Below are positions 5,145 through 17,785 of a DNA stretch of 17,869 bases, one piece after another. The position numbers were made by a program, and so were the translations under genes. This stretch comes from a bacterium. Its GTDB lineage: Bacteria; UBA9089; JASEIO01. Each line of letters opens with the position of its first letter. Position 1 is the stretch's first letter. The notes below the pieces were generated by a model. That model was not told the DNA's origin and did no database searches. It saw only the letters and a program-made list of their open reading frames with translations. Location of the stretch: positions 1 through 17,869 of the forward strand of contig JASEIO010000032.1 of NCBI GenBank assembly GCA_030017475.1, given 5' to 3'.

Positions 5145-5174
5145 CCTGCTGTCAAAATAATTGGTTTGAGCAGG
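5145..5174 (+). promoter_or_regulatory. Leader hairpin reaching the hisS Shine-Dalgarno sequence
   Basis: CCTGC (5145-5149) pairs with GCAGG (5170-5174), and TCAAA (5152-5156) with TTTGA (5165-5169). This gives ten base pairs with a 2-nt bulge and an 8-nt loop. The 3' arm ends in the AGG of the hisS Shine-Dalgarno AGGTGG (5172-5177), so folding would partly hide it. A second weak A/T palindrome, AGAAAAAGTTTTTCT, lies upstream at 5126-5140. The leader is too short for a T-box. A regulatory role is inference. Confidence 0.4.
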
Positions 5175-5180
5175 TGGGAG

Positions 5181-6449
5181 ATGGAGTTTAAAGCCGTAAG
5201 GGGAACAAAGGATATTTTGCCAGATACGGTAAAGGTTTGGCAATATATAGAAGGGAAGGCCAAGAAGATATTGGAATGCTATGGTTATCAAGAAATCAGA
5301 ACCCCTATATTTGAGGAGACAAATCTTTTTGTAAGAGGTATTGGAGAAACTACTGATATTGTAAGTAAAGAGATGTATACCTTCTTGGATAAGAAAGGAA
5401 GAAGTCTGACCTTAAGACCTGAAGGGACTGCTCCTGTTGTTAGGGCATATATTGAACATAGGTTAGATACAAGAGGTTCTCCTATTAGATTGTATTATTT
5501 TGGTCCTATGTTTAGATATGAAAGACCACAAGCAGGGCGTCAAAGACAATTTTGGCAATTAGGGATAGAGGTATTGGGTACATCTCATCCTTCGATAGAT
5601 GCAGAAGTTATTGATATGACTATGTATTTATTGCAAGAATTAGGCTTAAACGAGTTAGAGGTACAGATAAATTCTGTTGGTTGTGGAGTTTGCCGACCAA
5701 GATATAAGGAGGCATTAATCCGATATCTCAGTCCGTTTTTTAAAGATCTGTGCAAGAGCTGTAAAGAAAAGCTTTCGCGTAACCCAATGAGAATCTTAGA
5801 TTGTAAGGTGTGTTTCGATCTAAAGATCTCTTCTCCAGTTATGATTGAATTTTTATGTGACAGATGTAAGGATCATTTTGAAGGAGTAAAGGAATATTTA
5901 GATATGTTAGAGGTTACGTTTATTCTTAAGCCACATTTGGTAAGGGGTTTGGATTATTATACCAACACCTGTTTTGAGATAATTGACAAAAACTTAGGAG
6001 CACAAGATGCTGTTTGTGCAGGAGGTCGGTATGATGGATTGGTGGAAGAATTTGGAGGAAAGCCTACTCCGGCATTTGGGGCATCCGCTGGAATAGAAAG
6101 GATTATTGTAGCCTTAGAAAAGCAAGGGGTAGATGTGCCGAGCTCAACAAAGGTTGATGTATATTTTGCTACTATAGGTTCTCGGGTTAAAAAGAAGGTC
6201 TTTTCTTTGGTTAAAGATTTGCGGAAGAAAGATATATCAACTATATTTGAATGGAATGATAAAAGTTTAAAGGCCTCTCTTAGAGAGGCAAATAGGTTAC
6301 GCTCCAGGTTTGTAGTTATTATTGGAGACACTGAATTAAACAGAAATCAGGCTATCCTGAAAGACATGGAAACTGGGGAACAAAAAGAGATATCATTGAG
6401 TGGATTAGTAAATGTAATCAGTAATCTTTTACGAAGAGGCTGTAAGTAG
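5181..6449 (+). CDS. hisS: Histidyl-tRNA synthetase
   Basis: Class IIa synthetase that charges tRNA-His with histidine in the cytoplasm; 422 residues, normal for bacterial HisRS. Motif 1 lies in the first 60 residues. Motif 2 is FRYERPQAGRQRQFWQ (residues 111-126), with its ATP-binding Arg. The HisRS-specific LVRGLDYYT signature is at 253-261 and motif 3 is GASAGIERI (300-308). The anticodon-binding domain follows from about 325. An insertion at roughly 165-235 carries four Cys-x-x-Cys-like pairs (CGVC, CKSC, CKVC, CDRC), known in other HisRS proteins and possibly metal-binding. I chose ATG 5181, which starts at the family-typical MEFKAVRGTKDILPD and has AGGTGG just upstream; the TTG at 5166 is less likely. 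The 3' end runs into the heptad repeat shared with the aspS leader. Confidence 0.97.
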   Translation: MEFKAVRGTKDILPDTVKVWQYIEGKAKKILECYGYQEIRTPIFEETNLFVRGIGETTDIVSKEMYTFLDKKGRSLTLRPEGTAPVVRAYIEHRLDTRGSPIRLYYFGPMFRYERPQAGRQRQFWQLGIEVLGTSHPSIDAEVIDMTMYLLQELGLNELEVQINSVGCGVCRPRYKEALIRYLSPFFKDLCKSCKEKLSRNPMRILDCKVCFDLKISSPVMIEFLCDRCKDHFEGVKEYLDMLEVTFILKPHLVRGLDYYTNTCFEIIDKNLGAQDAVCAGGRYDGLVEEFGGKPTPAFGASAGIERIIVALEKQGVDVPSSTKVDVYFATIGSRVKKKVFSLVKDLRKKDISTIFEWNDKSLKASLREANRLRSRFVVIIGDTELNRNQAILKDMETGEQKEISLSGLVNVISNLLRRGCK

Positions 6450-6519
6450 TAAGCCATAAGAATTAGGTATAAATTAAGAAAGAGCTTACTGCTTAATCCT
6501 TACAGCTTATAGCTTTAGG
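6440..6519. repeat. Heptad-phased inverted repeat between hisS and aspS
   Basis: Four heptads of form NNNTAAG or close variants run from 6440 to 6467 (CTGTAAG, TAGTAAG, CCATAAG, then the weaker AATTAGG). Five heptads of the opposite form CTTANNN run from 6485 to 6519 (CTTACTG, CTTAATC, CTTACAG, CTTATAG, CTTTAGG). Positions 6440-6460 and 6485-6505 are inverted copies matching at 17 of 21 positions, with a 24-nt loop. The left arm includes the last two sense codons and the stop of hisS. The right arm contains the TTTAGG that serves as the weak aspS ribosome site. The hairpin could process or attenuate the hisS-aspS message. Confidence 0.65.
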
Positions 6520-6522
6520 AAT

Positions 6523-8277
6523 ATGAAAAGGACTCATAATTGTGGAGAGTTGAGACTTGAGAATGTTTCGGAAGATGTCACATTAATGGGGTGGGTCAAT
6601 ACAAGGCGCGACCATGGAGGATTGGTGTTTATTGATTTAAGGGATAGGTCAGGGGTGGTTCAGATAGTATTTAATCCAAAGATAGATACAATCTCCCATG
6701 CTAAAGCCCACGCCTTGAGGAATGAATATGTTATCGAGGTAGAAGGAGTAGTACAGGCACGACCCAAAGGAACTATTAACCCAACGATCCCTACAGGAGA
6801 GATTGAGGTAATGGTACATAGGTTAGAAATTCTCAATACATCCTTGCCTTTACCTTTTTCTATCTCTGAAGAAACTACGGTTTCTGAAGATATTCGTCTG
6901 CGATATAGATATTTAGATTTAAGAAGGTCTGCCTTACAGAGAAATCTTATCTTGCGACATAATATCTATCAGGAAATTAGGCGATTTTTGAGTGATGCAG
7001 GATTTGTTGAAATAGAGACTCCCTTTTTAATCAAATCAACCCCGGAAGGCGCCCGAGACTATATCATCCCAAGTCGTGTTAATCCAGGTAAGTTTTATGC
7101 CCTTCCTCAATCCCCGCAGCTCTTTAAACAGATTTTAATGGTAGCAGGGTTTGATAAATATTTCCAGATCGTTCGATGCTTCCGCGATGAGGACTTAAGA
7201 GCTGATAGGCAGCCAGAGTTTACCCAAATCGATTTAGAGATGTCCTTTGTAGATGAAGAAGATATCTTCTGCCTTATGGAAGATTTAATGGCTCATATAT
7301 TTAAAAAAGGTATTGGGGTAGAAATCCCTCGTCCCTTCCCAAGACTCACTTTTCAAGAGGCAATGGATAGATTTGGGACAGATAAACCAGAGACGAGATT
7401 TGGTTTAGAATTGATAGATATAACAGATCTGGCCCAGGAAAGTGGATTTCAGGTTTTTAATAAGGTGGCAAAAAGTGGGGGAAAGGTTAAAGGGATTAGG
7501 GTAGAAGATTCACTATCAAGATCCGAGATTGACAATTTAACCTCATTTGTCTCCATATATGGGGCTAAGGGATTAGCCTATTTTAAGGTGCTTGAAGGTA
7601 ATTTGGAATCCCCTATAGCTAAATTTTTCTCCCAAGATTTACAAACCAAGCTCCTTAAAAGAATGGGTGCAAAATCAGGTGATTTACTTCTTTTTGTGGC
7701 AGATAAATCCTCTATTGTAGCTCAAAGTTTATCCGCCTTACGTCTGTATCTTGGGAAAAAACTTAACCTAATCCCGAATTCTGGATTTAGCTTTACATGG
7801 ATTACCGATCCACTCCTTTTTGAATATAATGAGTCGGAGAGGAGATTGGAATCGATGCATCATCCATTTACCCATCCACGACTTGAAGACATCCCTTATT
7901 TAGAAACTTGCCCAGAAAAGGTTCATGCTAGGGCATATGACCTGGTTTTAAATGGGGTGGAAATCGGTGGTGGTTCAATTAGAATACATACCACGGAATT
8001 ACAAGAGGAAGTATTTAAGATACTTGGTTTACCTAAAGAGGAGGTAAAGAAAAGGTTTGGATTTTTATTAGAGGCATTATCCTATGGTGCACCACCCCAT
8101 GGAGGGATTGCCATTGGATTGGATAGATTACTACGGATTATCCTCAACTGTAATTCTATAAGAGAGGTAATTGCCTTTCCTAAAACCCAATCCGCTACCT
8201 GTTTGATGACTGATGCCCCATTTGATGTTGACTCCAAACAACTGAAAGAACTACATATAAAATTAGATCTGGAATAG
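6523..8277 (+). CDS. aspS: Aspartyl-tRNA synthetase, bacterial type, probably non-discriminating
   Basis: Class IIb synthetase of 584 residues, the usual bacterial length. In order: an N-terminal OB-fold anticodon domain (about 1-105), motif 1 near 145-171, motif 2 FRDEDLRADRQPEF from residue 220, the bacterial GAD insertion (about 285-420), and motif 3 GGIAIGLDRLLRI from 527. His31 (RRDHGG) and Gly83 (ARPKGTINP) are the residues I recall as marking non-discriminating AspRS, which also charges tRNA-Asn with Asp for later amidation by GatCAB. The start is MKRTHNCGEL, as in relatives, with a weak AGGA only two bases before the ATG. That poor site lies in the heptad repeat, so translation may depend on coupling or on the fold of the leader. 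Confidence 0.97.
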   Translation: MKRTHNCGELRLENVSEDVTLMGWVNTRRDHGGLVFIDLRDRSGVVQIVFNPKIDTISHAKAHALRNEYVIEVEGVVQARPKGTINPTIPTGEIEVMVHRLEILNTSLPLPFSISEETTVSEDIRLRYRYLDLRRSALQRNLILRHNIYQEIRRFLSDAGFVEIETPFLIKSTPEGARDYIIPSRVNPGKFYALPQSPQLFKQILMVAGFDKYFQIVRCFRDEDLRADRQPEFTQIDLEMSFVDEEDIFCLMEDLMAHIFKKGIGVEIPRPFPRLTFQEAMDRFGTDKPETRFGLELIDITDLAQESGFQVFNKVAKSGGKVKGIRVEDSLSRSEIDNLTSFVSIYGAKGLAYFKVLEGNLESPIAKFFSQDLQTKLLKRMGAKSGDLLLFVADKSSIVAQSLSALRLYLGKKLNLIPNSGFSFTWITDPLLFEYNESERRLESMHHPFTHPRLEDIPYLETCPEKVHARAYDLVLNGVEIGGGSIRIHTTELQEEVFKILGLPKEEVKKRFGFLLEALSYGAPPHGGIAIGLDRLLRIILNCNSIREVIAFPKTQSATCLMTDAPFDVDSKQLKELHIKLDLE

Positions 8278-8306
8278 TTTTTCGAGTATTCCAAAATTAC
8301 CTTGCA

Positions 8307-8320
8307 AATACAAATGTATT
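8307..8320. promoter_or_regulatory. Small perfect dyad upstream of lysS
   Basis: AATACA and TGTATT are perfect inverted copies separated by two bases, in the 105-nt AT-rich gap between aspS and lysS. It could be an operator half-site pair or chance in AT-rich DNA. No convincing lysS promoter was found around it. Another short pair, GGAATA (8272-8277) and TATTCC (8288-8293), flanks the aspS stop but has no T-run. Confidence 0.2.
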
Positions 8321-8382
8321 AAAATTAAAACTTCAAGCTATAAGAAAAGGGATGGCAAGGATTATTAGAGAGATTGAGATGA

Positions 8383-9798
8383 ATGGAAGAGATTATGGAT
8401 GAATTGATAAAGGAAAGGTATAATAAATTAGAGAATATAAAGAATAAAGAGATAGAACCCTTTGGAAGGAGATATGAAATAACTCATACTGCGTTATCTA
8501 TTTTAAAAAACTTTAAGGATGGAGAACGTGTTAGTTTGGCTGGAAGGATAATCTCTTTTCGATCTCATGGTAAGGCGAGCTTTGCCCATTTAAAGGATAG
8601 AACAGGAAAAATACAGATTTATACCAAGTTGGATATATTGGGAGAAGAGAATTACCTGCTCTTTAAACATTTAGACCTCGGAGATTTTATCGGGGTAAAA
8701 GGTAAAACCTTTAAAACAAGAACAGGAGAAATAACCATTCTAATAGAAGAATTCTCATTCCTAACCAAGTCGCTCCGCCCTTTACCTGAGAAGTGGCATG
8801 GTTTAAGGGATGTAGAGATAAGATATAGAAAGAGATATTTAGACCTATTGGTCAATCCTAAAGTAAAAGACACATTTATCATGAGATCTAAAATTATTCA
8901 GAAAATAAGGGAGTTTTTAGACAGACAGGATTTTTTGGAGGTAGAGACACCTATGATGCAACCAATTCCTGGTGGTGCAGTAGCAAGACCATTCTCTACC
9001 CATCATAATGCGTTGGATTTAGATCTATATTTAAGGATTGCCCCTGAATTATATCTAAAAAGATTGGTTGTTGGTGGATTGGAAAGGGTTTATGAATTAA
9101 ATAAGAGCTTTAGAAATGAAGGGATCTCAACTAGTCATAATCCAGAATTCACTATGCTTGAGGTATATAAGGCCTATGCGGATTATAGAGATATGATGGT
9201 GTTAACAGAGGAGATAATCATTTATCTTTTAAAAGAGCTGTTCGGAACTTTAAGGATTTCTTATCAAGGAAAGGAGATAGATCTTTCCCCTCCTTTTAAG
9301 AGGATAACCCTATTCGATGCAGTTAGAGAATATACTGGAGTGGAGGTTTCGGAGTTTTCTGATTTAAGAACCCGTTTAGGGATGGAATTTGAAGAGGATG
9401 AAACAGATGATGAGGTCTTAAACGACATCTTAGATAAGTATATTGCTCCACGCCTTATTCAACCAACATTTATCCTTGACTATCCAATCTCTATCTCTCC
9501 CTTAGCTAAGTCTAAAAAGGATAATCCTGATTTAGTAGAAAGATTCGAGTTGTTTATTGCCGGAGAAGAGGTAGCTAATGCCTATTCTGAGCTAAATGAC
9601 CCTATTGAACAAAGACGGAGGTTTTTAGAACAAGACAAGATCGATCCTGATTATATTGAGGCATTAGAGTACGGTTTACCCCCAACTGGTGGATTAGGTA
9701 TAGGTATCGATAGATTGGTTATGCTATTTACCGATTCCCCTTCTATAAGGGATGTAATCCTTTTCCCACAACTAAAACCAACGGGAAAAGGGGGATAA
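8383..9798 (+). CDS. lysS: Lysyl-tRNA synthetase, class II
   Basis: Class IIb synthetase charging tRNA-Lys; 471 residues, slightly shorter than the common 490-510. It has an N-terminal OB-fold (about 48-150), motif 1 around 167-195 (IIQKIREFLDRQDFLEVETP), motif 2 around 243-262 (RNEGISTSHNPEFTMLE) and motif 3 GLPPTGGLGIGIDRL around 431-445. The AYADY and GEEVANAYSELND segments are characteristic of LysRS. Two starts are possible. ATG 8383 gives MEEIMDEL. ATG 8395 (MDELIKERYNKLENI) has GGAAGAG about five bases upstream and matches the usual family start at least as well. I keep the longer form, moderately sure. It is third in the synthetase run and ends 16 bases from the oppositely oriented inositol gene. 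Confidence 0.95.
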   Translation: MEEIMDELIKERYNKLENIKNKEIEPFGRRYEITHTALSILKNFKDGERVSLAGRIISFRSHGKASFAHLKDRTGKIQIYTKLDILGEENYLLFKHLDLGDFIGVKGKTFKTRTGEITILIEEFSFLTKSLRPLPEKWHGLRDVEIRYRKRYLDLLVNPKVKDTFIMRSKIIQKIREFLDRQDFLEVETPMMQPIPGGAVARPFSTHHNALDLDLYLRIAPELYLKRLVVGGLERVYELNKSFRNEGISTSHNPEFTMLEVYKAYADYRDMMVLTEEIIIYLLKELFGTLRISYQGKEIDLSPPFKRITLFDAVREYTGVEVSEFSDLRTRLGMEFEEDETDDEVLNDILDKYIAPRLIQPTFILDYPISISPLAKSKKDNPDLVERFELFIAGEEVANAYSELNDPIEQRRRFLEQDKIDPDYIEALEYGLPPTGGLGIGIDRLVMLFTDSPSIRDVILFPQLKPTGKGG

Positions 9799-9814: not shown

Positions 9815-10909
9815 TTAGGAATAGAGATTCCCCGCGATAAACTCATCCATCATCTTCTTAGCTTTATAACCCGGATATTGAATAGGTGGATGCTTCATCG
9901 TATACGCAGATACAGAAATAAGTGGGCCACTTATCCCTCTATCCAGCGCCAGCTTACAGCACCTTATCGCATCAATTGCCACACCAGCTGAATTTGGTGA
10001 GTCTTCAACAGATAATCTCAACTCCAAATTCATAGGAATGTCTCCAAAGCCCCTTCCCTCCATTCGGATAAAACATACCTTATTATCCTTCTGCCAAGGG
10101 ACATAATCGCTTGGGCCGATATGGATGTTTTGGGATTCTAATGGCTTAGCAAGTTGCGACTGCACTGCCTCTGTCTTAGAGTTCTTCTTGGAATTAAGTC
10201 GGTTGCGTTCAAGCATATTGAGAAAATCGGTATTGCCACCAGTATTTAGCTGATATGTCCTTTCTAACTTCACTCCCCGGTCACTAAACATCTTGGTCAA
10301 TACCTGATGAGTTATTGTAGCGCCAACCTGTGATTTTATATCATCCCCAACTAAAGGCAAGCCCTTTTCTACAAATTTACTCTTCCAGTTTTGGTCAGAA
10401 GCGATAAATACAGGGATACAGTTAACCAAAGCAACCCCAGCATCTAAACAGGCCTGGACATAGAAACGGGTTGCTTCCTCTGAACCTACAGGAAGATAAT
10501 TGACCAAAATCTCAGCGCCGCTTTCTTTAAGCTCTTTAACTACATCACAAGGCGACTCATCTGCCACTAAAAAGGTACACTCTTCAGGATAATCCTTCAT
10601 ATGGGAGGCTACGCCATCTAAAAGATTTCCCATCTTAACTATTACGCCATTATCAGGCATGTCGGAACAGAATATCTTGGTGCAGTTTGGTTTTGCAAAT
10701 ATCGCCTCATTCAATGGCTTGCCAACCTTTCGCTTATCAATATCAAAGGCAGCCACTACTTCAATATCCCCTACCTTATACCCACTAACATCATAGTGCA
10801 TTAAGCCAACAACCTTTTCTTCTTGTGAATCTTTATAGAACTCTATTCCCTGCACTAGAGAACTGGCGCAGTTTCCCACTCCTACAATAGCAATCTTGAT
10901 TCTTCCCAT
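9815..10909 (-). CDS. ino1: myo-Inositol-1-phosphate synthase
   Basis: NAD-dependent lyase/isomerase converting glucose-6-phosphate to 1L-myo-inositol-1-phosphate, the only de novo route to inositol. The 364-residue protein is of the short archaeal/actinobacterial/Thermotoga type, not the long eukaryotic one. An N-terminal Rossmann motif, IAIVGVGNCASSLVQG, starts at about residue 6. Other family signatures are NYLPVGSEEATRFY, GDDIKSQVGATITHQ, LNTGGNTDFLNM and SVEDSPNSAGVAIDAIR; the Lys of GDDIKSQ and those in the middle domain are expected in catalysis. AGAGGTGA eight bases upstream fixes the ATG. It is the last gene of the eight-gene operon, 42 nt after a glycosyltransferase. That position suggests that inositol phosphate feeds the product, but it could also serve phosphatidylinositol or di-inositol-phosphate synthesis. 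Confidence 0.93.
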   Translation of the reverse strand: MGRIKIAIVGVGNCASSLVQGIEFYKDSQEEKVVGLMHYDVSGYKVGDIEVVAAFDIDKRKVGKPLNEAIFAKPNCTKIFCSDMPDNGVIVKMGNLLDGVASHMKDYPEECTFLVADESPCDVVKELKESGAEILVNYLPVGSEEATRFYVQACLDAGVALVNCIPVFIASDQNWKSKFVEKGLPLVGDDIKSQVGATITHQVLTKMFSDRGVKLERTYQLNTGGNTDFLNMLERNRLNSKKNSKTEAVQSQLAKPLESQNIHIGPSDYVPWQKDNKVCFIRMEGRGFGDIPMNLELRLSVEDSPNSAGVAIDAIRCCKLALDRGISGPLISVSAYTMKHPPIQYPGYKAKKMMDEFIAGNLYS

Positions 10910-10951
10910 GTCTTACTCACCTCTTTAGAAGATTTAATATTCTATCAAGGT

Positions 10952-11992
10952 TTAAAATAGTGATTCAAAAAGCTTAATAAACTTTTTGGCAATCTCAATC
11001 GATGAATTCGCCTTCACGAATTCCTCGGCCGTCCTTAAAACGGACTTAACATTCTCCCTTTCCTCAAATACATCTTCAAGCACATCAGAAAGACTTGAAT
11101 ATTTTAAGACCTCTTTATCAAAGGTAGCAAAGAAGTTGGTATCATAGGCGAGGATTGGCCTGCCTGCTCCTAAACAGAGATATGCAGTTGAAGGAACAAC
11201 CACTGCCTCAGCCGAATCTTTATGGATTAAAAGACAGTCCGAAGCATGTAGGTATGTATAAAGCATATTAATGGGCAATTTCCCATCCCTTAATTCAATA
11301 AATTTATATTTTATCCTGGCTGTATCAAATAGATCAAACCACTCCTTGATATGGGTTAGGGTAAGGAAGATAAGTGGGTATTTTTTACTTACGCGTTCTA
11401 TCGTCGGTAAAAGATGAAGGTGGCGATATATCCCGATACCATAGTTAAAGATTATCTTTTTATCAAGTGGCAGATTCAGGCGGATACGGGCTTCTTTTTT
11501 ATCTCCAGGTAACAAAGGATGGCAGGGATAGGGGATTATATGTATCCTATCCTCAGGGTAAATCTTACAAAGAAATTCTCTATATCGTTCGTCAAAACAG
11601 ACAATGGCATCCCAGTCGAATCTATAAAATATCGGATCCCTGGGCGGCTTACCCTCATGGACCACAAAAACGGTCTTAGATCTTTCTTTTATCCGTGGAT
11701 AGACCTTAAGTAAATCTTCCATTGGCAGTATCTCAAGATTTTGCACTACAAAGAGATCATAATTGTCTTCTAGAAAAGGTGTAGGATTAAAGAAAAATCC
11801 CTCCTTCTTTTTTGGAAGCCTATAGCATCTCAAAACATAGGGTTCATCCTTATCAGTCTGATAGTCCTCATATTCTACAGGCGCTAAAACCTTAAGATTA
11901 TGACCCATCTTTACAAACGCCCTTCCGAGAAGTTCCGCATGGGTAGAGACCCCGCAGGGGATATTCCAGCGACTCATCATTGTAATCCTCAT
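10952..11992 (-). CDS. GT-B glycosyltransferase, paralogue 3
   Basis: Probable cytoplasmic GT4-like transferase of 346 residues. The N-terminal Rossmann half begins at once (MRITMMSRWNIPCGVSTHAELLGRAF) and has the glycine/His acceptor-loop pattern GVSTHAE. The middle contains RFDWDAIVCFDERY and IIPYPCHP. The C-terminal half has YLHASDCLLIH and PSTAYLCLGAGRPIL. It shares these landmarks with the genes at 13855-14898 and 14895-16010, so the three form a paralogous set. The C-terminal segment takes the place of the classical EX7E motif but lacks its second Glu. AAAGGAGAG seven bases upstream gives a strong ribosome site. It is split from its paralogues by the GH130 pair and preceded by a hairpin. 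Donor and acceptor are unknown; mannosyl transfer is an inference from the neighbours. Confidence 0.82.
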   Translation of the reverse strand: MRITMMSRWNIPCGVSTHAELLGRAFVKMGHNLKVLAPVEYEDYQTDKDEPYVLRCYRLPKKKEGFFFNPTPFLEDNYDLFVVQNLEILPMEDLLKVYPRIKERSKTVFVVHEGKPPRDPIFYRFDWDAIVCFDERYREFLCKIYPEDRIHIIPYPCHPLLPGDKKEARIRLNLPLDKKIIFNYGIGIYRHLHLLPTIERVSKKYPLIFLTLTHIKEWFDLFDTARIKYKFIELRDGKLPINMLYTYLHASDCLLIHKDSAEAVVVPSTAYLCLGAGRPILAYDTNFFATFDKEVLKYSSLSDVLEDVFEERENVKSVLRTAEEFVKANSSIEIAKKFIKLFESLF

Positions 11993-12006
11993 TTTGGCTC
12001 TCCTTT

Positions 12007-12052
12007 ACCCAGTTAGAAATCCTTGCCTTCGGTATCTTATCTCTAACGGGGT
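12007..12052 (-). promoter_or_regulatory. Intercistronic stem-loop between GH130 and glycosyltransferase genes
   Basis: In the minus-strand RNA, a 14-nt arm (12052 to 12039) pairs with 12020 to 12007 at 13 of 14 positions, including one G-U pair, leaving an 18-nt loop. It fills nearly the whole 60-nt gap: it starts right after the GH130 stop codon and ends just before the AAAGGAGAG ribosome site of the next gene. No U-run follows, so it is not a standard terminator. A role in processing, mRNA stability or partial attenuation is more likely. It may also be a mobile palindromic repeat. Confidence 0.6.
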
Positions 12053-12934
12053 TTAGTTAAAGAGTTTCAACAACCCCTCTTTTTCTATAGTAGCTACACA
12101 AACTACCTTGTCCGCCGCACCGTAATAAATGAAATAGGTCCCTCCAACCTCACACGCACCACAGCCAAATACCACCTGATGTACCTCTCCACGCAGTTCA
12201 TAATTCTCCTCAGGCTCAAGGATTGGCTCAGGGTGTCTATGTAGTAACCTCCAAGGGTATTTTAAATCAAATAATGCCACCCCTAATCTATATGTTGCCC
12301 TTTCGTCAACACCGTGATAGAGAAGTAACCACCCTTTCTCTGTCTTTAAAGGTGGGCAGCCTGCGCCAATGGTCACTCCATCCCAGTTTCCAGGCTCAGG
12401 TGCCATAACCTTTCTCTGATCATACCAGTTGATTAAATCGTCCGAATAGGCGATCCAGATACTTAAGGGTTTTTCATCCATCGGCCTGTGGAACATTACA
12501 TACTTACCCTCAATCTTTTCTGGAAAGAGGACTGCATCTTTATTATCTATATCAGGGAATATTACTCCCATCCTTTGCCAGCTAATAAAATTCGTTGTAG
12601 AGGCCAAAGCCACCCTTACCCCGACTTGCGAATAGGCGGTGTAGGTCATATAAAACCTATTGCCAAGCCTTACAACCCTCGGATCTTCACAGCCTCTTGT
12701 TTCTAATCTTCCTTCTGGGGAAAAGACAGCCTTATCCAGTCGAAAGAAATTAAAACCATCTGAACTTACAGCATAGCCTATTCTGGAGATATCATCTACT
12801 CCCATAGCCCGGTAGAACAAATGAAATAATCCATTTGTGTATATAGCTGTAGGATTAAAGACAAGCATCGATTCCCATTCATTCTCAACTTTGGGCCTTA
12901 AGATAGGATTGCCCTGGTAACGTTTTAGTCTCAT
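12053..12934 (-). CDS. GH130 family beta-mannoside phosphorylase (candidate)
   Basis: Five-bladed beta-propeller enzyme of 293 residues with no signal peptide, so cytoplasmic. GH130 enzymes cleave beta-mannosides with phosphate to release mannose-1-phosphate, or run in reverse. Seen here: NPTAIYTNGLFHLFYRA (from residue 27), IGYAVSSDG, CEDPRVVRL with the expected catalytic Asp84, NKDAVLFPEKIEGKYVMFHRP (131-151), whose His-Arg is expected near the phosphate, GAGCPPL, GWLLLYHGV and the terminal IYYGAAD. The motif set favours a phosphorylase rather than a hydrolase. Linkage (beta-1,4 or beta-1,2) and acceptor cannot be read from sequence. The start overlaps the stop of the previous GH130 gene by 4 nt (ATGA), implying coupled translation and perhaps joint function. 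Confidence 0.87.
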   Translation of the reverse strand: MRLKRYQGNPILRPKVENEWESMLVFNPTAIYTNGLFHLFYRAMGVDDISRIGYAVSSDGFNFFRLDKAVFSPEGRLETRGCEDPRVVRLGNRFYMTYTAYSQVGVRVALASTTNFISWQRMGVIFPDIDNKDAVLFPEKIEGKYVMFHRPMDEKPLSIWIAYSDDLINWYDQRKVMAPEPGNWDGVTIGAGCPPLKTEKGWLLLYHGVDERATYRLGVALFDLKYPWRLLHRHPEPILEPEENYELRGEVHQVVFGCGACEVGGTYFIYYGAADKVVCVATIEKEGLLKLFN

Positions 12935-13854
12935 TTTGCCCCACTCTCATATATGGCAAGACACGTAAGTCTATCCGCTGCACCATAGTAGAGAAGCCAT
13001 CTATTCCCATCCGTAATAAGTCCTTCGGCAACTGCATGATTACCCGTGCCAAACTCCTTTCCATAATTCCGGGAAGACAAAAATATTGGTCTATCTGTCC
13101 TCTTAATAACCTTTGTCGGTTCATCTATCGAGAATAATATTCCACCCGGCTTATAAATACTGTCTTCTCCCCAGCCGTTATAGATAAAGAGGATCCCCTC
13201 TTTTAGCAAGATAGGGCTTGGACCTGGTTCCACCCCTTGATAATCAAAATAACCTTTACGAGGCACTACCACAGGCTCATCCTGTGGTTCATACCAGTGG
13301 AAGAGGTCTTTTGAATAAGCTATTCCAATAGCCGTTTTCCAAGGTCTTTCCTCTCCCATAAAATACATAACATATTTTCCATCTATCTTATCTGGAACAA
13401 TAACACCTGCCTTTATCTGGCCGCTATTCCATCTTCCTTCCTTTGGTTGGAGAATTGAACCATGTTTCTCCCAATGTAAGAGGTCACGTGAGGTCGCAAG
13501 ACATATATTTCCTACATTATATCTACCACTATTTCCAACATAAGTGAGAAAATATGTATCCTTAAATCTCACAACCCTCGGGTCTTCGCAGCCAAACCTA
13601 TCAAAATCCGAAGAAGGTACTATTACTGGTTCAGGGTGCAAGCTAAATTGGATGCCGTCATAACCTCGGGCAAGTCCTATCGTTCCTGTTCCACCGCCTT
13701 CTCCTTCAGCCCTAAATAGCATAAAGAAATCTCTACCTTCTTTAATCACCGTAGGATTATATGCACCTTTTGAGGTAAACCCTTTCCCAGGACCTAAAAT
13801 TGGGTTCTTTGAATAATCCACAAATGGTCCGATTATAAAATCTTTCTTACGCAT
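12931..13854 (-). CDS. GH130-like protein, second and divergent type
   Basis: Predicted cytoplasmic beta-propeller of 307 residues, only distantly similar to its downstream neighbour. It shares NPTVIKEGRDFFMLFRAEG, CEDPRVVRF (expected catalytic Asp91), FHWYEPQ and the final LLYYGAADRL. The segment matching the phosphate site reads KAGVIVPDKIDGKYVMYFMGE, with Met-Gly-Glu where the neighbour has His-Arg-Pro. Some GH130 members with altered phosphate residues are beta-1,2-mannosidases (hydrolases), and the related GT108 proteins are transferases, so its reaction may differ from its partner's. It starts directly after the stop of the preceding glycosyltransferase (0-nt gap) with only a weak AG-rich site, so it is probably translated by coupling. 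The family is well supported; the activity is open. Confidence 0.83.
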   Translation of the reverse strand: MRKKDFIIGPFVDYSKNPILGPGKGFTSKGAYNPTVIKEGRDFFMLFRAEGEGGGTGTIGLARGYDGIQFSLHPEPVIVPSSDFDRFGCEDPRVVRFKDTYFLTYVGNSGRYNVGNICLATSRDLLHWEKHGSILQPKEGRWNSGQIKAGVIVPDKIDGKYVMYFMGEERPWKTAIGIAYSKDLFHWYEPQDEPVVVPRKGYFDYQGVEPGPSPILLKEGILFIYNGWGEDSIYKPGGILFSIDEPTKVIKRTDRPIFLSSRNYGKEFGTGNHAVAEGLITDGNRWLLYYGAADRLTCLAIYESGAK

Positions 13855-14898
13855 CTATCTTGCTCTTAAAACCTCAATAAATAGCCCTATATACCTTTTG
13901 GCAATTTCGTCAGGTGAATTCATTAACACAAACCCTTCTGCTGCGTCTTTGATTCTTTTATACGGCTCTTCATCTTCAACTAATTCAAGTAGCTTCCTAT
14001 TTAATTCCTCGGCATCTCCATAACGTATCACCTCATTCTGCAGAGGATGAAAGAAATCCGATTGCTTTGGAACAAAGATTGGGCAACCACAACCTAATGC
14101 CTGAAAGACAGTTGATGAAACAACAGCACGATAACGACTCTGGAACTTATGAAAAATAGCCGCATCCGAGGCAAAGAGATAGTCATCAAACCTCTCACGG
14201 GATAAGACATCCTCTCTTCTAATAATCATCCAATCAGGAGATGAGGTCTCTTCAAGCATCTGGTATTCTTTGGAGACGACATGTAGAAGCACCGCCTCAT
14301 CTTTAATCTCCTGAGGTAGGTATCGAAGATAGGAATGATAGCCGCGCTGGCCAAAGGAGTAGATGATTTTTTTATCCAATGGAAGCCCTAACCTCTTTTT
14401 TGCCTCAAGCTTGTCCCCCCTTCTTACTCCAAAACAAGGAAAAGGGATAAACTTAGCGTCAGGATAGACCTCTTTTAAGAATTCCTGCCACTTGTCGAAA
14501 TAGACTACCTTATCCCAGTCAAATTGATAAAACCAGGCTTCATCAGGCAATCTATTCTCATGAACTATATGTATTGTCCTTGCCCGATCTTTAATCAACG
14601 GGAATATCTTGGCCAATTTCTCTACCGGAAGCATCCTTAGATCCTGGACTACGAAGATATCAAAGTCTGAGGTTAGAATAGGCCTTGGGTCTAAAAAGTT
14701 CGTCTTGTCTTGAGTTCCAAAACATCTGATAACATAATCCTCATCTTCTCCAGTAAATCCTTCCCCATGGAAATCATCCTTTATGAAACTGAATACGGTT
14801 AACCTGTGTCCCATCTTTATCCAGGCTCTTCCCAATGGTTCCGCATGTACAGCTACTCCACTATCTGTGTTCCAGGCACCCATCATAGCGATCCTCAT
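13855..14898 (-). CDS. GT-B glycosyltransferase, paralogue 2
   Basis: Probable GT4-like transferase, 347 residues. It opens MRIAMMGAWNTDSGVAVHAE, then GRAWIKMGHRLTVFSF, and carries YQFDWDKVVYFDKW and FIPFPCFGV in the middle. The C-terminal half has LFASDAAIFHKFQS and SSTVFQALGCGCPIF. It is the most diverged of the three paralogues: the IPYPCHP segment is FIPFPCFG here and HASD is FASD. No membrane segment or signal peptide is seen. The strong ribosome site GAGGAGG lies seven bases upstream, and the ATG overlaps the stop of the preceding paralogue by 4 nt. The second Glu of the usual EX7E motif is absent. Substrates are unknown. Confidence 0.82.
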   Translation of the reverse strand: MRIAMMGAWNTDSGVAVHAEPLGRAWIKMGHRLTVFSFIKDDFHGEGFTGEDEDYVIRCFGTQDKTNFLDPRPILTSDFDIFVVQDLRMLPVEKLAKIFPLIKDRARTIHIVHENRLPDEAWFYQFDWDKVVYFDKWQEFLKEVYPDAKFIPFPCFGVRRGDKLEAKKRLGLPLDKKIIYSFGQRGYHSYLRYLPQEIKDEAVLLHVVSKEYQMLEETSSPDWMIIRREDVLSRERFDDYLFASDAAIFHKFQSRYRAVVSSTVFQALGCGCPIFVPKQSDFFHPLQNEVIRYGDAEELNRKLLELVEDEEPYKRIKDAAEGFVLMNSPDEIAKRYIGLFIEVLRAR

Positions 14899-16010
14899 CT
14901 TATAGCCTCCTCGGATTTTCTGAAGATTTCAGGGTTATCTCTTTTCACTACCTTCTTTTCTAACAAAGACTGAAATAGGTCAATATATTGATTGGCTATA
15001 GATGTAGCTGAATTTCTCATTAAGAAATCCTCTAAACTTCTCTGCCAGTTATAAAATCTTGGCCCTCGATTTAGGATCTCTATTAGATTATCTTCAAATT
15101 CCTCAAGATTGGTATAGGTAAGGACTACTCCATCCATATTATAGAAATAATTTGACATTAAAGCTAAGATAGGGCAATAAGAGCCCAGGCATTGATAGGC
15201 AGTAGATGATACTACAACCCCAGAAGGGGATGGGCGATGGTAAAGTAGTACATCTGATGCGTGAAGGTAACTATAAAGCCTCTCTATATCTGGTGCCTCT
15301 TCTCTAATTAAAATCTCTAAATGACCTCTCTTGAAGTCCTTTATTTGATCCAAATCCCTCTTTGAGACAACCAAAACGAGAATGGGAAAACGGCGGCTGA
15401 TATTCTCTAAGGTTGGTATAAGTGCTATATGGTCCTTAACCGCTCTTTGTCCAAAAAGAAGGAGGATATATCTATCCTGAGGAAGATCTAACTTCTCTCT
15501 TTCCTTAAACCTATCTCCACACCTTTTGGGGTGACAAGGATATGGTATAATATGAAGTTTTTCTTCAGGGAAGCCTTTTCTTAAAAAATTGTAATACCTA
15601 TCATCAAAGCAAACTATCGCGTCCCAATCAAACTGATAGAATGAAGGGTTAGATGGAAGTCTATTATGATGAATTATAGTTACAGTCCTTGCCCTTTGTT
15701 TAATGAGATGAAATATCTTTGCCAGTTCATCCTGAGGAAGCATCCCCAGATCCTGGGTAATGAATATATCATAATCTGCTTTAAGGATAGGCTGGACATC
15801 TAAAAAGGGAGGTTTTGCTTGTGATGTAGTAAAGCAGCGAGATACGTAATCCTCATCCTCACAAACAATGGCCGTTCCATGAAAATCAGTTTTAAGGAAG
15901 GAGAAGACAGAAAGCTGATGTCCCATCCTTACCCATTCCCTTCCGATTAACTCGGCATGGATAGATGCCCCTGAGTCCTGATTCCATGCAGACATCATCC
16001 CTATATCCAT
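14895..16010 (-). CDS. GT-B glycosyltransferase, paralogue 1
   Basis: Probable GT4-like transferase of 371 residues, the longest of the paralogous three because of a charged C-terminal tail of about 20 residues (KKVVKRDNPEIFRKSEEAIR). N-terminal MDIGMMSAWNQDSGASIHAE and GREWVRMGHQLSVFSF, middle QFDWDAIVCFDDRYYNFL and IIPYPCHPKRCGD, then LLLFGQR at the start of the second Rossmann half and LHASDVLLYHRPS with SSTAYQCLGSYCPIL near its end. AAGGTGG eight bases before the ATG fixes the start. It lies 12 nt after the phosphatase gene and overlaps the next paralogue by 4 nt. As in its relatives, no canonical EX7E is seen. Donor and acceptor are unknown. Confidence 0.82.
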   Translation of the reverse strand: MDIGMMSAWNQDSGASIHAELIGREWVRMGHQLSVFSFLKTDFHGTAIVCEDEDYVSRCFTTSQAKPPFLDVQPILKADYDIFITQDLGMLPQDELAKIFHLIKQRARTVTIIHHNRLPSNPSFYQFDWDAIVCFDDRYYNFLRKGFPEEKLHIIPYPCHPKRCGDRFKEREKLDLPQDRYILLLFGQRAVKDHIALIPTLENISRRFPILVLVVSKRDLDQIKDFKRGHLEILIREEAPDIERLYSYLHASDVLLYHRPSPSGVVVSSTAYQCLGSYCPILALMSNYFYNMDGVVLTYTNLEEFEDNLIEILNRGPRFYNWQRSLEDFLMRNSATSIANQYIDLFQSLLEKKVVKRDNPEIFRKSEEAIR

Positions 16011-16022
16011 TTACTCGCCACC

Positions 16023-16430
16023 TTATATAAATCTTTCCTTTTGTTTCAGAGCTATCTTTATAGTCTCAGCCAATAAAGGCAAGGGATCTATATGTCGCTT
16101 TTTTGAGGCGACAAATTTTACTGCCTCTGTATAATCAAAACCGATACTACACAGATAACCTATAACCACAGATACAGATCTTCCCGCGCCATATCTACAA
16201 AAAACCAATATCTTATCTAAAATTATATTCTTATCTATCCAGTTAATCGCCTTAAGCATCATTTCTACAGGGACACGTGACCCATCCTGCAGAGGAATCT
16301 TATAATATTTCTTGACAGGTTTATATAATTCAACGTCATCTGCCACATTAAGAAACGCGGTTATCTCACTTGGTGGATTTTCTGCATCACCGATGTTACC
16401 TAATGCTAAGTTTTCTAAGATAAAGACCAT
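16023..16430 (-). CDS. Small dual-specificity-type (cysteine) phosphatase
   Basis: Single-domain protein of 135 residues in the protein-tyrosine/dual-specificity phosphatase superfamily. The P-loop is CRYGAGRS (Cys78 to Arg84, CX5R followed by Ser85), preceded by the hydrophobic strand KILVF. The expected general acid is Asp49 in IPLQDGS, and the N-terminal FLNVADD strand is typical. The residue before the catalytic Cys is Phe77 instead of the usual His. The substrate may be a phosphoprotein, but members also act on phospholipids, glycans and inositol phosphates, and its place between glycosyltransferases suggests a pathway substrate. It lies 8 nt after one glycosyltransferase gene and 12 nt before another. 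No good ribosome site is seen, so translation is likely coupled. Confidence 0.85.
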   Translation of the reverse strand: MVFILENLALGNIGDAENPPSEITAFLNVADDVELYKPVKKYYKIPLQDGSRVPVEMMLKAINWIDKNIILDKILVFCRYGAGRSVSVVIGYLCSIGFDYTEAVKFVASKKRHIDPLPLLAETIKIALKQKERFI

Positions 16431-16438
16431 TGTAAAAC

Positions 16439-17668
16439 TTAGATTCGGTCAAGAATAGGTAGCTTACTTCCAGACCGCAATACCTCTTCTAATAAGAGAT
16501 GCTTCTGAGCCTGAATCTCGTAAGAAAAGTTTTGAGCATAGCGCCAACTCGACCTCAGTGCCCTTTCCTTCAATTCAGGTTTTAATGTGAGTATCTCTAT
16601 CTTCTCTGCCAGCTCTTCCAGGGTGCAAGCTCGTGGAAGTCCAGAAAGCCTTAAAGTCTCCCCTATCCCTTCAATATTTCGACCAACTACAAAAGTTCCT
16701 GCACCTTGAGCATGTGCCATTCTTCCTGACTGGGTAGCGTTATGAAACCAAAATATGGCAAAGTCTAATGCCTGAAAGGCAAAGGGAAAGATTTCTTCAG
16801 GGATATAATCTTCAAAGAATAGATTTCTTCTTCCATCGTGGATAGACTTTAGTCTTTCTAAAATGGGTAGACCCTCCTCCATCTTTTTATCCTTTCTCTT
16901 TTGAATCCTTCCAATATAGATAGCGATTACCTTATAGGTCGGAAGTCTTGCCTGAAGGATCTCACCAAGCTGGTAAAGTCTAAGGGGATCCTTATCCTTG
17001 GTGATAAATCCAAAGCTACCCAACAAAATTACCTTATCTAAAAAAAAGAGATCCTGCAGGGATTTGAGTTCTTCCTTTTGTGTTTGAGAACTTGCCCGAT
17101 TAATCAAATAACTCAAGAGTTTCTTCCTTGCTTCCTCTTTGTTAACCTCAGGATAAAGGTAAACCCCATGCCTTAAAACTACTACCTTATCTTTATATTC
17201 AGGAAATGTACTAACGACTGCCTGATAAGCTCCATTAGTAAAGACTGTTATGGCGTCGACTAAAGGAAGAATTTCCTCAAGAAGCCTTTTTTCCTTTTCC
17301 TGTAATCCATAAGGTGTCTCATCGGATTGGAAATGGATGGTATGAAGACTTACAATCGTCTTCTTTTGTCTTTCTTTTGCCTCTTCAATCAACTTAAGAA
17401 AACATGGGGATTCTCTGCCCCACATACCAAAGGCATGCTCAAACCATAGAACTTCTCCATCTAAAAGAGAAGGAAGGCTCGGGTTAGATAGAGAGATGGT
17501 ATATGCTACTCGTTTATCCAATTCAAATGGCTCCTCCGTCTTTAAAAATCCATCCAACCTCAAGGAAGTCACTCGCCAGCTTTTCCTAGGCATCTTAGAG
17601 ACCAAATATTTAGTATAACTTCCTATTCCACACATTATCGGTGGAAAGGTTGAGACGAAGTTGATCAT
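16439..17668 (-). CDS. GT-B glycosyltransferase (GT4-like), operon leader gene
   Basis: Probable cytoplasmic glycosyltransferase of 409 residues and first gene of the operon. It begins MINFVSTFPPIMCGIGSYTKYL, the nucleotide-sugar GT-B opening with the Gly-rich acceptor loop. Mid-protein it has VSLHTIHF and VVVLRHGVYLYPE, and the second half opens with VILLGSFGFITKDKDPLRL. Where GT4 proteins have the second Glu of EX7E this one has QSGRMAHAQGAGTFVVG. It is not close to the three paralogues downstream. Start: GGAGG at 17680-17684 lies 11 nt before ATG 17668 but only 2 nt before ATG 17677, so I prefer 17668; a TTG at 17686 is less likely. It follows a strong promoter with a leader of about 80 nt. 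The substrate is unknown. Confidence 0.82.
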   Translation of the reverse strand: MINFVSTFPPIMCGIGSYTKYLVSKMPRKSWRVTSLRLDGFLKTEEPFELDKRVAYTISLSNPSLPSLLDGEVLWFEHAFGMWGRESPCFLKLIEEAKERQKKTIVSLHTIHFQSDETPYGLQEKEKRLLEEILPLVDAITVFTNGAYQAVVSTFPEYKDKVVVLRHGVYLYPEVNKEEARKKLLSYLINRASSQTQKEELKSLQDLFFLDKVILLGSFGFITKDKDPLRLYQLGEILQARLPTYKVIAIYIGRIQKRKDKKMEEGLPILERLKSIHDGRRNLFFEDYIPEEIFPFAFQALDFAIFWFHNATQSGRMAHAQGAGTFVVGRNIEGIGETLRLSGLPRACTLEELAEKIEILTLKPELKERALRSSWRYAQNFSYEIQAQKHLLLEEVLRSGSKLPILDRI

Positions 17669-17690
17669 ACCAACCATTTCCTCCAAGAGG

Positions 17691-17709
17691 CTGTTTTTAG
17701 TTTAAACAG
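17691..17709 (-). promoter_or_regulatory. Short leader hairpin ahead of the operon
   Basis: CTGTTT and AAACAG are perfect inverted copies around a 7-nt loop, in the transcribed leader just upstream of the GGAGG of the first operon gene. Six base pairs, mostly A/T, make a weak structure. It may be chance. Confidence 0.2.
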
Positions 17710-17756
17710 AAGTGCCCCTCAGATGTTCTTTAGTACTTTGAACCCACTCGTTTCGA

Positions 17757-17785
17757 ATGATAGCATATAAAAATGGATACGTCAA
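17757..17785 (-). promoter_or_regulatory. Strong predicted promoter of the eight-gene glycan operon
   Basis: Minus strand: -35 TTGACG (17780-17785), an optimal 17-nt spacer, and -10 TATCAT (17757-17762) directly preceded by TGC, an extended -10. Each hexamer differs from consensus at one position. Transcription would start near 17750, leaving about 80 nt before the ATG at 17668. No other good promoter was seen between the operon genes. Upstream DNA (17786-17869) shows nothing recognisable. Confidence 0.65.

Follow-up and report, generated by a model that had tools for sequence, protein, structure and literature searches.

Organization of the operon

The window analysed here is a stretch of 17,869 nucleotides (nt) of bacterial DNA (GenBank assembly GCA_030017475.1, contig JASEIO010000032.1; GTDB lineage Bacteria; UBA9089; JASEIO01), which spans an entire 17.9-kb contig from a genome (G000) of 1.64 Mb that is 98.5% complete. 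From position 17668 to 9815 its minus strand carries an operon of eight genes in the order GT8, DSP, GTa, GTb, GHa, GHb, GTc and Ino1 (Table 1), coding for four putative glycosyltransferases (GTs), a phosphatase, two GH130 proteins and an inositol-phosphate synthase. The original prediction, made from the letters alone, had described eight co-directional genes, and all eight open reading frames (ORFs) were found on the minus strand where it had placed them. The gaps at the junctions, in order of transcription, are +8, +12, -4, 0, -4, +60 and +42 nt; the predicted spacing, mostly overlapping or 0–12 nt, thus applies to five of the seven junctions and fails at the last two. The first gene, GT8, probably starts at ATG 17668, which is preceded by GGAGG, rather than at TTG 17686, where its longest ORF begins. 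As to the single strong promoter that had been proposed, a good site lies upstream at 17785–17757 (score 10/12, ranking in the top five for the region), but such sites are not commoner in the region than in shuffled sequence (18 found versus 18.8 expected). No transporter or flippase is encoded by the eight genes or in the rest of the window, and that the operon holds neither a transporter gene nor a gene for a membrane protein agrees with the suggestion of a cytoplasmic pathway.

Table 1. Positions of the operon features in the window and of the DUF4202 genes in related loci (L)
Feature	Position	Strand	Basis
Promoter-like site TTGACG-17-TATCAT, extended -10 (TG before -10)	17757..17785	-	sequence match
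GT8, GT-B glycosyltransferase	16439..17668	-	AlphaFold model, fold match; no Pfam match
DSP, small dual-specificity-type phosphatase	16023..16430	-	PF00782, intact C-X5-R (CRYGAGR)
GTa, paralogous GT-B glycosyltransferase	14895..16010	-	
GTb, paralogous GT-B glycosyltransferase, most widespread and conserved member	13855..14898	-	
GHa, GH130, predicted hydrolase type	12931..13854	-	phosphate-binding residues lost, E-41-E base pair present
GHb, GH130, predicted phosphorylase type	12053..12934	-	nearest to Thermoanaerobacter beta-1,2-mannoside phosphorylases
GTc, paralogous GT-B glycosyltransferase	10952..11992	-	
Ino1, inositol-phosphate synthase, second genome copy	9815..10909	-	PF01658, motifs, 1gr0 match
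DUF4202 genes behind IPCT/DIPPS	L069:11587-12138, L148:3524-4087, L149:5049-5612		
DUF4202 genes behind IPCT/DIPPS	L152:7599-8168, L153:7513-8109, L155:7423-8037		

GH130 proteins

GHb and GHa both belong to GH130, with 250.8 and 167.9 bits against PF04041 (Glyco_hydro_130; cut-off 26) and with the conserved GCEDPR motif, including its aspartate. Neither reaches the equivalog cut-off of 450 for NF052550, the model of GH130 beta-1,2-mannobiose phosphorylase (GHb, 349; GHa, 146). The residue rules that separate phosphorylases from hydrolases were taken from PMC4599007. GHb retains all three basic phosphate-binding positions (FHR, PP.K and YHG motifs), and the solved structures closest to it are two beta-1,2-mannoside phosphorylases, 9fj8 and 7fip. 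At the same motifs GHa carries MGE, PILL and YNG and lacks the residues of a phosphorylase; the proteins closest to it are of the Bacteroides hydrolase type, and its glutamates (MGE...VEPGP), which align with those of BT3780-like chains, lie 41 residues apart by residue count, which is the spacing of Glu227 and Glu268 in BT3780. These two residues serve as base in BT3780, in which Lys199 marks specificity for the beta-1,2 linkage (PMC4599007). The equivalent lysine is present in both GHa and GHb. From these active sites, GHb is predicted to be a phosphorylase of beta-1,2-mannosides and GHa to be a hydrolase, so that one operon combines a phosphorolytic and a hydrolytic enzyme for what is probably a shared linkage. 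The earlier statement that GH130 enzymes act on beta-mannosides with phosphate is supported by the beta-1,2-type active sites of the pair, but does not fit GHa, which is hydrolase-like and no phosphorylase. At the N-terminus of GHa (MRKKDFIIGPFVDYS) no signal sequence was visible by eye (no predictor was used).

Two further GH130 genes were recorded. A third GH130 of G000 (contig C45; L014:6443-8708) is 50% identical to GHb and starts 1 base past the stop of an MFS transporter gene. A variant at L027:3022-4191, with relatives in L023, L067, L092 and L093, carries an arginine where the others have the beta-1,2 lysine (Lys199 of BT3780) and sits in an archaeal inositol operon, linked to ino1 and to the gene of the di-inositol-phosphate synthase IPCT/DIPPS; this arginine would perhaps suit a phosphate-bearing acceptor.

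Glycosyltransferases and phosphatase

GTa, GTb and GTc share 42–45% pairwise identity. In a Pfam scan they matched GT models below cut-off only, while GT8 matched none, and profile searches of the Protein Data Bank sequences gave no match for these three proteins or for close GT8 members. Confident AlphaFold models were obtained for GTb and GT8 (predicted local distance difference test, 93.6 and 87.3). The best fold matches of GTb are PimA (Z 28.0), MshA (Z 27.4) and BshA (Z 26.7); by its model, GTb has a GT4-like GT-B fold, which is a hint of function at most. The folds nearest to GT8 are glycogen synthase, MshA and trehalose-6-phosphate synthases. Several of these are enzymes using phosphorylated acceptors, which fits the frequent neighbour of GT8, the phosphatase DSP: the two genes are adjacent in every locus where both were found. 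DSP is a member of PF00782 (DSPc; 37.1 bits, cut-off 33.5), and its C-X5-R motif is kept in the window and in five relatives.

The E-x7-E pair of retaining GT4 enzymes does not occur among the invariant or near-invariant C-terminal-domain columns of the GTa/b/c family (49 sequences), nor is there a pair of this spacing among the invariant residues of GT8. The window GT8 has no NCBIfam match, and archaeal GT8-like proteins reach 45–48 bits against the MshA model TIGR03449 (cut-off 462.5).

Distribution of related loci

When 84,980 species genomes were scanned with the GT alignment, at least 79 loci were obtained; the identities, hosts and counts of loci that follow refer to the matches listed. 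The GTs are 36–74% identical to GTb, and their hosts include ANME-1 and related archaea, deltaproteobacteria, Omnitrophota, Spirochaetes, WOR-3, Chloroflexi, Bathyarchaeota and others. In 57 of the 79 loci the GT gene has a GH130 gene immediately next to it on the same strand, the main exception being the Omnitrophota. The GTb homologues of that phylum (L025, L026, L036, L038-L040 and L049; about 60% identical) have other conserved genes alongside instead of GH130 neighbours, and may have a different role.

Within its own small phylum the operon occurs in G000 and in one genome of another family (G002) only. The latter has GT8-DSP-GTa-GTb-GHa-GHb-GTc in the same order as the window, and behind GTc a membrane protein and a penicillin-binding protein (mreD and PBP2 by sequence) replace ino1. 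All eight genes, in the order ino1-GTa-GT8-DSP-GTb-GHa-GHb-GTc and followed by a GH5-type gene, are present in two other bacterial bins (L019 and L064); in L019 the GH5-type gene is followed by ManC, and in L064 a frame break splits ino1 into two pieces. A ManC-like gene, identified by sequence, lies behind GTc in L022. Since another family preserves the order of seven of the eight genes, and L019 and L064 hold all eight in a changed order, the gene order is not due to chance. Clusters of the WOR-3 type contain the GT and GH130 pair only.

The GT tree comprises three old paralogue clades, each extending across several phyla, and 24 archaeal GTb sequences form a single clade among bacteria. Transfer across domains appears the simplest reading of this tree, although contamination of bins could mimic it at single loci. 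GTb is 65–67% identical to its counterparts in the same deltaproteobacterial genomes to which aspartyl-tRNA synthetase, a weak yardstick for transfer, is 57–58% identical.

Inositol-phosphate synthase and its linkage

Ino1 scores 129.1 bits against PF01658 (Inos-1-P_synth; cut-off 27), has the motifs GDDIKSQ, GGNTDFLN, SKK.SKT and D.PNSAG intact, and matches inositol-3-phosphate synthase 1gr0 with an E value of 2e-127; with 480.2 it stays below the cut-off of 638 for TIGR03450, the model of mycothiol Ino1. The other Ino1 of the genome (C33:8486-9568) is 71% identical to it. An Ino1 gene was found in four of the 79 GT loci, as compared to about 0.34 expected by chance. Two ANME-type archaea (L148 and L149) have an operon ino1 - GT - GH130 - IPCT/DIPPS - DUF4202, two others (L027 and L154) have regulator - IPCT/DIPPS - GTc - GH130 - ino1, and in L069 the genes GTa-GT8-DSP-GTb-GHb are followed by ino1-IPCT/DIPPS-DUF4202 and another GH130 gene. 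The IPCT/DIPPS genes of L069, L027 and L148 are full-length; NF041135 recognizes the enzyme in relatives with 300 (L069) and 193 bits, which is below its Thermococcales cut-off of 580, and the two-domain layout is correct.

The Ino1 tree separates the copy of the window, those of L019 and L064, that of L069 and those of ANME, placing them in different parts. Going by this tree, Ino1 has joined GT-GH130 loci several times and from different Ino1 lineages; movement of the operon Ino1 with the GTs as a single block is ruled out by it. The operon-borne Ino1 of L019 (4910-6115) and L064 forms a long branch (0.87) with intact motifs, and each of these genomes carries a second Ino1 elsewhere. That the linkage recurs through several independent recruitments strengthens the assignment of Ino1 to the pathway; a consistent absence of ino1 or the phosphatase from relatives had been named as a pattern speaking against a single pathway, and both genes are in fact kept in some relatives. 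The presence of Ino1 anywhere in a genome is a different matter: with 26 of 43 GT-bearing genomes versus about 5 of 12 unrelated ones it is not clearly above this small, unmatched background, and only physical linkage is therefore counted here.

A search for IPCT/DIPPS in the genome itself had been suggested; G000 contains partial, weak matches only, while relatives do have the enzyme, either in the corresponding locus or in a sister locus. A di-inositol-phosphate product is thus unlikely in G000, and was discarded as a candidate on these grounds. According to a review, an ANME-1 genome has genes for the synthesis of di-myo-inositol phosphate and mannosylglycerate (PMC4335971). Inositol solutes in ANME are hence already known; for their link to GT and GH130 genes we found no description. 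Directly behind IPCT/DIPPS, six loci from bacteria and archaea have a gene for a DUF4202/HD-domain protein (PF13875), a candidate for the phosphatase that completes the synthesis of di-myo-inositol phosphate and that, to our knowledge, has so far gone unidentified.

Adjacency in 57 loci as compared to ino1 in four indicates that GT and GH130 form the stable core, and the WOR-3 type clusters hold this pair alone. Both observations, like the resemblance of GHb to Thermoanaerobacter enzymes phosphorolysing 1,2-beta-oligomannan, could also point to a beta-1,2-oligomannan reserve, in which the GTs would start and lengthen a short mannan, the GH130 proteins would lengthen it or break it down, and the genes for Ino1 and the phosphatase would be no more than co-regulated neighbours. 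However, the repeated and independent recruitment of Ino1, the presence of IPCT/DIPPS in relatives and the lack of a linked branching or polymer-type enzyme make such a reserve rather unlikely.

Genome context

A mannose-1-phosphate guanylyltransferase is encoded on contig C56 of G000, so that the mannose activation gene that had been sought elsewhere in the genome exists and could supply GDP-mannose. Contig C62 (L114:821-3887) carries in a row a phosphatidylinositol-phosphate-synthase-like gene, a PimA-like GT gene and a gene resembling the acyltransferase of phosphatidylinositol mannoside (PIM) synthesis (PRK07920, 197 bits; cut-off 209), a trio that resembles actinobacterial PIM genes. Probably G000 makes phosphatidylinositol-type lipids using its other Ino1, on C33, and we infer that the operon copy serves the operon alone.

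The same trio, together with PimA as the best structural match of GTb, raises the question of whether the GTs act on phosphatidylinositol or its mannoside, with the operon Ino1 boosting the supply of inositol phosphate for a lipid headgroup. The operon, though, encodes neither a flippase nor a polyprenyl-phosphate mannose enzyme nor any membrane protein, and an exported lipid would be out of reach of cytosolic GH130 proteins. In relatives, moreover, the inositol gene linked to GT and GH130 is that of the solute enzyme IPCT/DIPPS, and the lipid-type CDP-alcohol transferase adjoins ino1 away from GT-GH130. We thus consider a headgroup function distinctly improbable.

DSP was also weighed as a substitute for a missing inositol monophosphatase (PF00459), and this idea was dropped because the absence is uninformative: PF00459 is lacking in G000 and G002, but also in 14 of the 17 remaining members of the phylum, none of which has the operon, and genomes G066-G068 have both DSP and PF00459. 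Overall, the family is absent from 16 of the 19 phylum genomes and present in all 14 control genomes.

The remaining genes of the window code for a Wzz-type protein, an NAD-dependent epimerase, a radical-SAM/DUF2344 protein and the products of hisS, aspS and lysS. These last form a co-directional trio of tRNA synthetase genes at 5166-9798 that is convergent with the operon, 16 nt separating the operon end from lysS.

Proposed pathway

We tentatively favour, at a confidence just short of even, a pathway in the cytoplasm by which a soluble mannosylated inositol compound is built, trimmed and recycled; the compound would serve as a solute or small reserve. Donor, acceptor, linkages, order of steps, product and physiological role are given below as we infer them. 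Ino1 would convert glucose-6-phosphate to inositol phosphate, on which GT8 or one of the paralogous GTs would place a sugar, most likely mannose from GDP-mannose; the C-X5-R phosphatase DSP would then strip the phosphate. Two-step solute pathways with a phosphatase are known from MshA and its phosphatase and from sucrose-phosphate and mannosylglycerate synthesis. Further mannose would be added by GTa, GTb and GTc. GHb would cleave terminal beta-1,2-mannose with phosphate, releasing mannose-1-phosphate to be recharged by the guanylyltransferase of the genome, and GHa would trim the product by hydrolysis.

A mannosylated inositol product is favoured by the repeated recruitment of Ino1 and by IPCT/DIPPS in the loci of ANME-type relatives and L069. 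It is also favoured by the phosphate-binding residues of GHb and the beta-1,2 lysine of both GH130 proteins, by the adjacency of GT8 and DSP, by the nearest folds of GTb (PimA and MshA, both inositol-linked) and by the supply of GDP-mannose from C56, along with ManC in L019 and the ManC-like gene in L022.

Several observations weigh against this pathway. Most relatives have GT and GH130 only, with no ino1 in the fetched stretch, and G002 retains seven genes and has its ino1 elsewhere; given the relatives that are without linked ino1, inositol may be one acceptor among several. The likeness of GTb to PimA and MshA is common to many GT4-like enzymes, as the Z score for BshA illustrates, and the missing E-x7-E pair leaves the GT mechanism, and hence an alpha or beta product, open. 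The GT8 profile matched MshA only when distant archaeal members were included, and L017 and L018 have GT8 but show no DSP. Finally, the operon Ino1 could merely raise the supply for a phosphatidylinositol-type lipid.

With rather less confidence, we suggest a broader scheme, namely a horizontally spread, undescribed class of mannosyl-inositol compounds. A GT-B family that lacks the glutamate pair of GT4 would synthesize them, and a GH130 phosphorylase and hydrolase would recycle them; ANME archaea would share the class with deltaproteobacteria and further bacteria living in anoxic habitats. It would exist in two forms, with either di-inositol phosphate or simple inositol as the base. The known occurrences of mannosylated inositol solutes are mainly in a few hyperthermophiles. 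If the proposal is true, a solute or reserve has been overlooked in ecologically central organisms, ANME archaea and uncultured bacteria; many orphan GH130 proteins that are now read as degraders of imported mannan would have a synthetic or recycling role, and a GT family of open mechanism would be defined. Four GTs, two GH130 proteins and one phosphatase are directly testable as enzymes.

Comparison with known systems

Searches of open-licence papers yielded no description of the eight-gene set, and within this literature the statement that no such system is known holds. All parts lie in or near known families, except for the exact place of the GT family; the same papers gave no description of the combination of genes, of two GH130 types paired in a synthetic context or of the spread across domains. 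The operon relates to two known kinds of system, glycosylated inositol solutes and beta-1,2-mannoside metabolism.

The nearest gene cluster is Teth514_1785-1796 of Thermoanaerobacter, which has been interpreted as a salvage system (PMC4264767). Shared with it are two adjacent GH130 enzymes for beta-1,2-mannosides, to whose phosphorylases GHb is closest, and a GT4-type GT; a mannose-1-phosphate guanylyltransferase and a GH5 protein are also listed as shared content. It differs in having a five-gene ABC transporter and a single GT, annotated as alpha-mannosyltransferase, in that both its GH130 proteins are phosphorylases, and in the lack of ino1 and of a phosphatase. Salvage, in which imported beta-mannosides would be used for GDP-mannose as has been suggested for Thermoanaerobacter, would match the similar GH130 pair, GT and ManC content, the GH5-type gene of L019 and L064, and the third GH130 of G000 behind its MFS transporter gene. 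No ABC importer is encoded in the operon or the window, however, and four GTs, a phosphatase and Ino1 indicate synthesis, leaving salvage very improbable.

Thermotoga and Archaeoglobus make di-myo-inositol phosphate or mannosyl-di-myo-inositol phosphate. Synthesis of the latter shares with the mannosyl-inositol pathway proposed here Ino1, a mannosyltransferase acting on an inositol acceptor, and beta-1,2-mannose, and relatives of the operon adjoin IPCT/DIPPS; it differs in that IPCT/DIPPS is absent from G000, and we know of no description of it with GH130 genes. The MshA step of mycothiol synthesis has the same type of Ino1 (1gr0, TIGR03450 family), a GT-B enzyme and then a phosphatase, but GT8 fails the MshA model and the operon adds three GTs and the GH130 proteins. 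In Leishmania, GH130-related GT108 enzymes handle cytoplasmic beta-1,2-mannan (mannogen). Such cytoplasmic handling of beta-1,2-mannan by GH130-related proteins is the shared element, whereas the operon proteins score as GH130 and are accompanied by separate GT-B enzymes and Ino1.

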